The notes under the pieces were generated by a model. The model was not told the DNA's origin, searched no databases, and saw nothing but the letters and a program-made list of their open reading frames with translations. From positions 1 through 41,613 of the forward strand of contig JANLJK010000283.1 in the NCBI GenBank assembly GCA_029255525.1: a stretch of 41,613 nt of DNA, given 5' to 3'. The translations under genes were made by a program, and so were the position numbers. The DNA comes from Pseudolabrys sp. GTDB lineage: Bacteria > Pseudomonadota > Alphaproteobacteria > Rhizobiales > Xanthobacteraceae. Positions 31,511 through 34,061 of the stretch are shown piece after piece; position 1 is the stretch's first letter, and each line of letters starts with the position of its first letter.

Positions 31511-33628
31511 TCAGGTCTGGATATCTTCGAGGTCCGTGATTTCGTAATAGCCCTCGGGGACGGCGAAGCCGGTCGATTCCTGCGGGCGCGGACGCCGGCG
31601 GCGGGCCGGCGCACCGGTTTCGAGCGGATCAAAAGTGCGCAGCTTCTTGGCGTCGTCCTGGCCGCAGACGAAGGTCAGGCCGGTCAATCGCTCGATCTCG
31701 GCGATTTTCGTCTGGAAGGTCTTGTAGGCGCCGAACGGCACTTCCGTCACCTCGATGCCGAACTGGGCAATGACCTCTTCCTGGCCGGCGATATAGGCGG
31801 TGGCGAACAGCTTGCCATCCGCCTTCAGCGCGGCGACCACCTTCCAGAACTGCAATGGATACTGGATTTCCCGGTATTCCGGATCGCCCTCGTCGAGGAT
31901 CGGACCAGTGAAGATCTGCGTATTCACCTCGCCCTCGATGATCGACTTCTCCAGGACGTAACGCTCGATCCCCTGCCAGATCTCCTTGTTCTGATTGAAG
32001 CGCTCGTGTTGCGGCGTGCAATTGGACCAATGGCAGGTATCCGCCGCCGAGATGAGCGCGTCCTTGGGTTTCTTGCCGTATTCGAGATCCTCGCGTCGCG
32101 TCAGGTGGCCGCGGTCGAACTTGTTGCTCGCGTAGTACCAATTCTCGAGCTGATGGTCGGCGAGGATGCGGGGATCGCGGCGCCAGACGTCGGTCGGCCG
32201 GCTCAATTCGAAGCGATCGCCGAAGGAGATATTGGCCGCGCTGTAGATCGCCAAGCGCCGCTTGGCGTGCATGACCACGCTGTAGTTGTGATAGTGCAGC
32301 ACGTTTTTGTTGTTCGCCTGCGGTTCGATCAGCGGCGCGGCGACCGCTTTGAGCGCGGGGCTGAGATGCGGCAGCCCCACGCGCTTGTCGCCGGTGCCGA
32401 GGAAGTTGGCGTTGTAGCCTTTGCGGGCCGAATAATCCTCGTCAAAGGGTGCATCGAAGCGGGCTGTCGGCTTGGTTCTCTTCTCGAGAAATGAGATGGC
32501 GGGGCCGGTGCTTTCGATGGCGCCGCGCGTGTTGGCGATGACCGAACCGGGCCGGCCATCGGGCCCGATCTGGATGGAGAGTTCGAGCGGCACGGAGATC
32601 GTACGCGTGTCGGCCATGGGGCCCCCCTTCGGCGATAGAGCAATGGTGCTGATTTCCTTCGGCGGCGCAGTGATGCGGGCCGAGGCGGGCGTCGCCGCGT
32701 AGAGCGGCAACAGCAACGGATGTTGCGGGTGCGTCTGCTTGAGCGTTTCGAAAATACGGCTGGCGCGGGCGCCTTCGTTGGCGATCCAGTTGACTGTGCC
32801 GTCGGACCGCTTCTGGACCACGCCGTCGCGCTTCTCGGGAACGCCGGCGTGATGCAGTGCGACAACGTACCAGTCATTGTTGAAGACGGGCGAGCCGGAC
32901 GAGCCCGGCTTGGTGTCGGTCGTGTACCAGAGAAAATTGTCGTCGCGCTTGATGAACTGATTTTCGCGGACGCAGATCTGCTTGCGCAGGCCGTCCGGGT
33001 GTTGAATGGCCGTGAGCCATTCGCCTTCGGAGACTTTGCCGACAGTTTCGAGCAACGGCAGATAGCCGAATTGCGCGAGCGGCACGCCGTCGTGTGACGT
33101 CGGCTCGACCGCCACCACGGAGAAGTCGAGCTCGGGTGAAGTGAAGAACAGGTCGGACGGCCTGAATCCATAGACGACGGGGCCGACTTCGACGTCAGCA
33201 ATGTCGACCTCGAAGTGGAAGTTTGCGACGGCGCGGGCGGCGATGCCGCCGTCGGGCAGGACGTGATTGTTGGTGATCAGCACATGGGGCGCGATGAGAA
33301 AGCCGGTGCCGTAACCGCCACCGCGGAGGTCGACTCGCGCCACGGCGCGCGCGGCGATCGCGCCGCGCTCAAGGTAAGCGACGGGCTGTAGCTCGTCGCC
33401 GCCGATGATGCGCTCGAAAGCGTCCTTCGCCTCGGTGCCGCCGAGGCTCTCTTGCAGGAATTCCTGACGCGTCTTGAGCACCGATGTAGGTGCAACGTCG
33501 CTCGGGCCCTTGTTGCGCAGCGTGATGGCGAGGCGGATGAGCTCGGCGAGCACGGACGGGTCGAGCGAAGCGCTCGCTCGGTTCGGATCCTCGCGTCCCC
33601 CCAGGATCGTCATGCCGCCCCACGTCAT
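31511..33628 (-). CDS. Trypsin-like serine protease fused to DNA/RNA non-specific endonuclease
   Basis: Protease: GTGFLIAPHVLITNNHVL (His), SPELDFSVV (Asp), DTKPGSSGSPVF (Ser). Nuclease: NKFDRGHLTRREDLEYG (DRGH) and CHWSNCTPQHERFNQ (Asn metal ligand). No signal peptide or TM segment. Confidence 0.88.
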   Translation of the reverse strand: MTWGGMTILGGREDPNRASASLDPSVLAELIRLAITLRNKGPSDVAPTSVLKTRQEFLQESLGGTEAKDAFERIIGGDELQPVAYLERGAIAARAVARVDLRGGGYGTGFLIAPHVLITNNHVLPDGGIAARAVANFHFEVDIADVEVGPVVYGFRPSDLFFTSPELDFSVVAVEPTSHDGVPLAQFGYLPLLETVGKVSEGEWLTAIQHPDGLRKQICVRENQFIKRDDNFLWYTTDTKPGSSGSPVFNNDWYVVALHHAGVPEKRDGVVQKRSDGTVNWIANEGARASRIFETLKQTHPQHPLLLPLYAATPASARITAPPKEISTIALSPKGGPMADTRTISVPLELSIQIGPDGRPGSVIANTRGAIESTGPAISFLEKRTKPTARFDAPFDEDYSARKGYNANFLGTGDKRVGLPHLSPALKAVAAPLIEPQANNKNVLHYHNYSVVMHAKRRLAIYSAANISFGDRFELSRPTDVWRRDPRILADHQLENWYYASNKFDRGHLTRREDLEYGKKPKDALISAADTCHWSNCTPQHERFNQNKEIWQGIERYVLEKSIIEGEVNTQIFTGPILDEGDPEYREIQYPLQFWKVVAALKADGKLFATAYIAGQEEVIAQFGIEVTEVPFGAYKTFQTKIAEIERLTGLTFVCGQDDAKKLRTFDPLETGAPARRRRPRPQESTGFAVPEGYYEITDLEDIQT

Positions 33629-33788: not shown

Positions 33789-33863
33789 TGGCTCCCGAGG
33801 CTGGGATCGAACCAGCGACCATTCGATTAACAGTCGAATGCTCTACCGCTGAGCTACTCGGGA
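33789..33863 (-). tRNA. tRNA-Asn (GTT)
   Basis: Reverse complement TCCCGAGTAGCTCAGCGGTAGAGCATTCGACTGTTAATCGAATGGTCGCTGGTTCGATCCCAGCCTCGGGAGCCA; cloverleaf arms pair, encoded CCA. Confidence 0.95.
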
Positions 33864-33987: not shown

Positions 33988-34061
33988 TGGAGGCCACGCC
34001 CGGAATCGAACCGGGGTGCAAGGATTTGCAGTCCTCTGCGTAACCACTCCGCCACGTGGCC
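33988..34061 (-). tRNA. tRNA-Cys (GCA)
   Basis: Reverse complement GGCCACGTGGCGGAGTGGTTACGCAGAGGACTGCAAATCCTTGCACCCCGGTTCGATTCCGGGCGTGGCCTCCA. Confidence 0.95.

Follow-up and report, generated by a model that had tools for sequence, protein, structure and literature searches.

Proteins that join a trypsin-like protease to a NucA-type nuclease have been described before. Kaur, Burroughs, Iyer and Aravind (2020; PMC7159879) described a NucA-trypsin 'System 3' that is mostly alphaproteobacterial and has its domains fused or encoded in one operon; a proteolytic cascade deploying NucA was proposed for it, and its partners (EAD1, a STAND NTPase and an S8 peptidase) are optional. A Tryp-Endonuclease_NS protein was listed as early as a 2008 survey. 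NucA-trypsin fusions are common, and in the sole relative studied experimentally, LypC of Caulobacter crescentus, the nuclease looked dispensable (PMC13236601). The MBL nuclease-trypsin pairs HamM/HamA (Hachiman) and Avs1 (AVAST) contain a trypsin-like protease that activates a pro-nuclease; forced oligomerisation raised activity in the HamA/Avs pairs, and the HamA protease cuts after Ile (PMC12799240), so that specificity varies among defence trypsins. In view of the systems of Kaur et al., the 2008 survey, LypC and the protease-activated MBL pro-nucleases, the fusion gene analysed here, which lies in a 41,613-nucleotide stretch of Pseudolabrys DNA (the window), is a solitary member of the known NucA-trypsin System 3, and its architecture is not new. 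The first-pass annotation had taken similar fusions to occur in other bacteria; its description of the function as undefined has to be withdrawn, as System 3 is already named and its function predicted. We tentatively read the protein, at somewhat less than an even chance, as a solitary cytoplasmic conflict effector of the NucA-trypsin kind that acts as a self-processing pro-nuclease.

The gene was located by its open reading frame and translation:

31511..33628, minus strand: whole fusion gene, 705 aa, ATG start

The first-pass annotation had these coordinates and this length correct and lacked only the strand; its numbering of H122, D168, S244, DRGH 505-508 and N536 is exact. Translation may in truth begin at Met6 (window 33613, minus strand), because homologs have their first Met at the position of residue 6. 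Pfam searches placed Trypsin_2 at residues 107-258 (E 2.5e-20) and, after a disordered linker, Endonuclease_NS/NucA at residues 438-659 (E 3.8e-37), both over the curated cut-offs. In the full-length AlphaFold2 model (mean pLDDT 79.9) the N terminus was weakly predicted and the linker disordered, and two domains, at about 95-320 and 395-670, were confident; the pTM of 0.48 means that the relative placement of the domains is not predicted. The best PDB fold matches were FAM111A, Spl/V8-type proteases, DegS, EndoG and Serratia nuclease. A viral fold library gave generic trypsin and nuclease matches only, NCBIfam and lenient Pfam searches of the N terminus and linker gave nothing useful, and PADLOC gave no whole-protein defence model, with a weak match of the protease domain to RT-Protease_XI (E 8e-6). 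Since KD hydropathy never exceeded 1.13 in any 19-residue window, the fusion protein has no predicted TM segment or signal peptide, as the first-pass annotation had claimed.

Like System 3, the fusion combines a NucA/Endonuclease_NS domain with an intact motif and a trypsin-like peptidase with an intact triad. Unlike System 3, the gene stands alone, without EAD1, STAND NTPase, second peptidase or TM segment; EAD1, STAND NTPase and S8 peptidase partners were not found near it in the window, and optional System 3 partners are present in the related loci L057/L059. The second of these (L059:9460-18999, minus strand) is a multi-gene version of the system, an operon of S8-trypsin, trypsin-AAA, AAA_16/nSTAND1 NTPase and standalone NucA genes. 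With LypC of the CARD-NLR-like LypABC, the fusion shares the layout of trypsin-like domain, flexible linker and endonuclease (662 aa in LypC versus 705 aa), but neither the CARD-protease nor the NLR encoded in the LypC operon (PMC13236601) occurs near the fusion gene. The LypC-like members of our alignment are about 25% identical to the fusion protein, the LypC sequence itself lying outside the comparison. LypA-like and LypB-like genes were absent from the window, and a LypB-like query (from L059) found no match in the 85% complete Pseudolabrys genome, with a match of 30% identity (E 1e-30) in the control L058; we therefore do not assign the gene to the CARD-NLR systems. The control locus (L058:6428-16244 (+), from a genome of the same order) encodes a LypC-like trypsin-NucA protein beside LypA-like and LypB-like genes. 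The pro-nuclease idea and a trypsin-like protease needing oligomerisation, as proposed here for the fusion, recall the MBL pairs, which differ in their MBL fold, separate genes and cleavage after Ile, the fusion having an Endonuclease_NS nuclease in the same chain and a predicted preference for Glu.

Two tRNA genes mark the site of the gene:

33789..33863, minus strand: tRNA-Asn, conserved neighbour; the fusion gene lies in a variable site past its 3' end
33988..34061, minus strand: tRNA-Cys, conserved neighbour

On this side the neighbours of the fusion gene are tRNA-Asn and tRNA-Cys, then PCMT and an outer-membrane efflux gene, and on the other a convergent fatty-acid hydroxylase. No inhibitor-like or partner gene is adjacent to it in the window, which upholds the earlier remark that an immunity or inhibitor gene is missing. 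Among the 44 genomes of the genus, the fusion gene was found in its own genome only (43 others searched), and PCMT in 41. Beside PCMT, nearly all of the 29 scanned loci have tRNA-Cys and usually tRNA-Asn, and the stretch after tRNA-Asn differs between congeners. The ORFs past it (window 33788 and below) encode a nicotinate phosphoribosyltransferase-like protein in some congeners, a methyltransferase in one and the hydroxylase in one; the congener G1102 has an empty site, with about 50 bp between the end of the hydroxylase gene and tRNA-Asn and no fusion gene. This variable site is a candidate insertion hotspot, at which no tRNA-derived att-like repeats of at least 10 bp were found. The GC content of the fusion gene (63.4%) fits that of the window (65%). 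The Undibacterium homolog likewise follows a tRNA (tRNA-His).

Identity to the fusion protein was 68% in Reyranella, 59% in an order-mate, 55% in Verrucomicrobia, 50% in Undibacterium, 48% in a Rhizobium plasmid homolog and 44% in Phycisphaeraceae. Because these closest homologs belong to other families and phyla, identity to full-length members of the gene's own family does not exceed about 41%, and the 43 congeners lack the gene, the sequence comparison points to horizontal transfer. With single-domain matches counted in, 40 of the 398 genomes of the order (E <= 1e-20) and 113 plasmid records contained matches; inheritance is patchy, extending over plasmids and several phyla. Phages gave no match, and neither did viral contigs in a scan by exact peptide patterns, which reaches close relatives only. 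Annotation of such fusions is limited to 'DNA/RNA non-specific endonuclease' or hypothetical protein. Several homologous loci depart from the simple fusion. On a Rhizobium leguminosarum plasmid (L124:2977-5110 (+)) it is annotated as two adjoining genes, protease then endonuclease, and in one genome of the order three neighbouring ORFs match NucA or protease domains (L051:5110-13379). In Undibacterium umbellatum (L006:7917-13579) the homolog is broken, its trypsin part and nuclease tail flanking about 4 kb in which a 917-aa ORF lies together with one resembling a glycosyltransferase; the gene appears dispensable there.

The genes around the homologs were surveyed for defence islands, and housekeeping surroundings had been named beforehand as refuting a conflict role. 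No enrichment was seen, with one strong PADLOC match (IetS, L044) in 111 neighbours of 14 fusion loci; no conserved neighbour or partner gene was found in the close clade, and the neighbours of close homologs include the housekeeping genes RF3, MraW and hydantoinase. Some plasmid copies lie near a restriction enzyme, and on a Rhizobium johnstonii plasmid (L128:2641-7833 (+)) a SIR2 family protein and an ATP-binding protein, possibly a defence pair, are encoded no more than about 1.3 kb past the homolog. The housekeeping context and the missing defence islands would suit a reversed order of action, in which a nuclease free to act is kept in check through degradation by the protease, or a pair of scavenging or stress hydrolases with no conflict role. 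We consider this improbable, since an ungated non-specific nuclease in the cytoplasm should poison the cell if no inhibitor restrains it, and the patchy inheritance over plasmids and several phyla is unlike that of housekeeping genes.

In two Cupriavidus plasmids (L064, L131) the fusion gene is part of a type II secretion operon, where gspF and gspG flank it. The staphylococcal Spl/V8 and Serratia nuclease relatives of the two domains are secreted. Both the operon and this kinship favour an enzyme that leaves the cell by a type II or IV secretion system and works extracellularly or against other bacteria; we hold such a role to be very unlikely, given that no signal peptide was seen in the fusion protein or in the inspected N termini across 35 fusions, and that the window contains neither secretion genes nor an immunity gene.

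The protease part comprises the following elements:

32729..33346, minus strand: trypsin/V8-like protease domain, residues 95-300 (Pfam, alignment, AlphaFold2, fold search)
33263-33265, 33125-33127 and 32897-32899, minus strand: codons of the triad residues H122, D168 and S244
32852..32914, minus strand: S1-pocket residues T239 (Thr190 position) and H259 (His213 position) (alignment to 1p3c and V8)
32567..32602, minus strand: recurrent beta-strand TISVPLELSIQI, end of the protease module (alignment, AlphaFold2)

The triad was kept in all 38 aligned proteins. In the alignment, T239 and H259 match Thr190 and His213 of the Glu-specific enzymes 1p3c and V8, and they are invariant in 45/45 aligned fusions and in 26/26 further ones. 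The same Thr190/His213 pair is present in related PLD-fused and LypA-like proteases, and it occurs too in viral 3C-type proteases, Gln-specific ones included. Mandatory elements of glutamyl endopeptidases (GEPases) are His213 together with Ser/Thr190, according to a review (PMC5508998). Having the triad and the Thr190 and His213 equivalents of the S1B enzymes, the fusion protease bears, by its sequence, the S1 signature of glutamyl endopeptidases, a new observation for the fusions, and we infer that its P1 residue would be Glu. It resembles V8 and the B. intermedius GEP (1p3c) in fold, triad and both pocket residues; those enzymes are secreted, whereas the fusion has no signal peptide and is joined to a nuclease. 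In a congener, a 972-aa protein (L082:6974-9889 (+)) has the same protease type fused to phospholipase D (PLD) and no nuclease, with a strand similar to TISVPLELSIQI, TIPLTVTVNVG, ahead of its linker; another congener encodes a 971-aa protein with this kind of protease, 75% identical to it (L081:6809-9724 (+)). From their sequences, these proteins give evidence of effector swapping between NucA and PLD on one protease type.

Ahead of the protease domain two segments were distinguished by alignment and AlphaFold2:

33419..33628, minus strand: N-terminal segment, residues 1-70, variable, helical, pLDDT mostly 30-75
33347..33415, minus strand: conserved protease entrance, E72 and ERIIGGDELQPVAYLERGAIAA, helix 83-93

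A helical N-terminal segment, perhaps a sensing or autoinhibitory part, had been proposed in the first-pass annotation. Residues 1-70, examined also as the place of a LypABC-type CARD, are indeed helical but weakly predicted, with poor conservation, low pLDDT and no Pfam match, and a sensing domain there is at most putative; DAFERIIGGDELQPVAYLERG, on the other hand, is no loose helix and forms the conserved entrance of the protease domain, with E72 invariant in the 35 aligned fusions. The serine protease domain of FAM111A, the best PDB fold match for the protease domain, is likewise preceded by a helix, and FAM111A requires dimerisation, through its N-terminal helix; unlike the fusion, it is eukaryotic, has chymotrypsin-like specificity and lacks a nuclease. 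By its position, as in FAM111A, the entrance segment is a candidate oligomerisation or activation element, FAM111A dimerisation and the forced oligomerisation of HamA being analogies only. The entrance also contains RIIGG, which resembles a trypsin activation site, and a cut between R73 and I74 of R73-I74-I-G-G would give an active N terminus as in chymotrypsinogen. We rejected this canonical zymogen route, the least probable of the readings considered, on the ground that R73 is not conserved (it is missing in LypC-like members, L062 and L066, E72 alone being invariant) and that Ser244 is preceded by Ser, Ala, Thr or Asn instead of Asp.

The nuclease and the C terminus comprise:

31628..32437, minus strand: NucA/EndoG-type endonuclease domain, residues 398-667 (Pfam, alignment, fold search, AlphaFold2)
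32105-32116 and 32021-32023, minus strand: DRGH (505-508) and N536
31514..31549, minus strand: conserved C-terminal tail YYEITDLEDIQT, candidate latch (alignment motif, AlphaFold2)

The domain has the beta-beta-alpha-metal fold, the DRGH motif and the metal-ligand Asn of the EndoG and Serratia NucA nucleases, from which it differs by its extra conserved tail and its attached protease. DRGH and the Asn are intact in most of the 38 aligned proteins; letters are altered in L042, L052, L055, L061 and L063, and the motif is lost in L050 and L051, which retain the protease triad. Both catalytic sites are thus complete in their residues, as the first reading of the gene had it. Pairwise distances of the two domains correlate at 0.49, a value that is uninformative because both lie in one chain. 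The tail motif [ILVM]x4D[ILVM], a pattern derived from the alignment before it was counted, was found in 29/35 fusions versus 3.7 expected, and it also terminates standalone NucA proteins, that of L059 among them. AlphaFold2 gave the tail a pLDDT of 75-84 with the protease domain present or absent; in the nuclease-alone model (pTM 0.89) the spacer before the tail is floppy (pLDDT about 52). From the pLDDT and secondary structure of these models, the tail is predicted to pack on the nuclease, where it may function as a latch.

Each of the two disordered segments that border the nuclease contains a Glu-Ser dipeptide that we propose as a target of the protease (a slash marks the predicted cut):

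32510..32515, minus strand: predicted self-cleavage site 1, E372/S373 (AIE/STG), in the disordered linker (inference)
31574..31579, minus strand: predicted self-cleavage site 2, E684/S685 (PQE/STG), in the C-terminal spacer (inference)

Among 39 non-redundant proteins, E[SA] was present in the C-terminal spacer of 28 (13.2 expected; maximum 23 in 5000 shuffles) and in the linker of 35 (23.9 expected; shuffle maximum 32), and D, K/R and Q control motifs showed no enrichment in the same test; the motif had been spotted in the alignment before being counted, and the shuffles ignore relatedness. Since it was first noticed in those data, it was retested on new sequences, a small validation set of eight non-redundant proteins drawn from one family, in which E[SA] occurred in the spacer of 7/8 (2.7 expected, p 0.001) and in the linker of 8/8 (5.4 expected, p 0.03). 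Restricted to the close clade, the linker test gave a weak signal (7/7 versus 5.2, p 0.13). Both disordered stretches next to the nuclease are therefore enriched in Glu-Ser/Ala dipeptides, a new observation for which the validation set gives weaker support. Cleavage is predicted after Glu at E372 and E684; the tail lies beyond site 2, so cutting at E684 would remove it. The consulted sections of Kaur et al. (2020; PMC7159879) contain no mention of the S1 signature, the Glu sites or the tail.

As a self-processing pro-nuclease, the protein would rest with its protease latent, the nuclease kept in the chain and the tail bent back over it. Phage infection, stress or a similar trigger would render the protease active, most likely by chains meeting through the conserved pre-protease segment; oligomerisation is suggested as the trigger by analogy, and an antiviral role is presumed. 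The protease, with its glutamyl-endopeptidase-type pocket, would then cut after Glu at E372/S373 in the linker and E684/S685 in the spacer, and the two cuts would free the nuclease and release the tail latch. The freed nuclease would degrade nucleic acid, and the cell would be killed or arrested. The proposal is supported by the intact catalytic residues of both domains, the invariant S1 signature, the E[SA] enrichment, the conserved tail and the patchy inheritance, as well as by the exchange of NucA for PLD on one protease type and by the precedent of the protease-cut HamM/Avs pro-nucleases. The earlier suggestion of a conflict or self-destruct effector whose protease activates its nuclease is a reasonable one that gains from the Glu-site and S1 evidence and loses from the missing defence islands, the housekeeping neighbours of close homologs and the LypC mutants.

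LypC is the main caution against a self-processing pro-nuclease. Its S296A substitution abolishes lysis, whereas the nuclease substitutions H471A and N505A do not; LypC becomes unstable when its nuclease domain is deleted, and no such domain is present in the homolog from C. endophyticus (PMC13236601). Together with the proteins that keep the triad and lose the nuclease motif (L050, L051), these results favour the main rival explanation, in which the protease is the output, cleaving a lytic effector that acts downstream, or other proteins of the cell, once triggered, and NucA is an accessory for stability or structure. We judge it unlikely, though a serious contender: nearly every fusion retains DRGH and N536, the swap of NucA for PLD fits an effector role, and the tail-bearing standalone NucA of L059 shares an operon with protease and NTPase genes.

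Fusions of this kind had previously come under suspicion as cell-suicide or antivirus proteins, and the addition made here is the suggested self-cleavage sites. That the fusion is in full a single-chain death enzyme, whose Glu-specific protease cuts itself at two Glu sites and frees a latch without a partner sensor gene, is possible but doubtful. If the proposal is true, the logic of a Glu-type protease, a cleavable linker and an exchangeable effector (NucA or PLD) would span the wider NucA-trypsin/LypC family.
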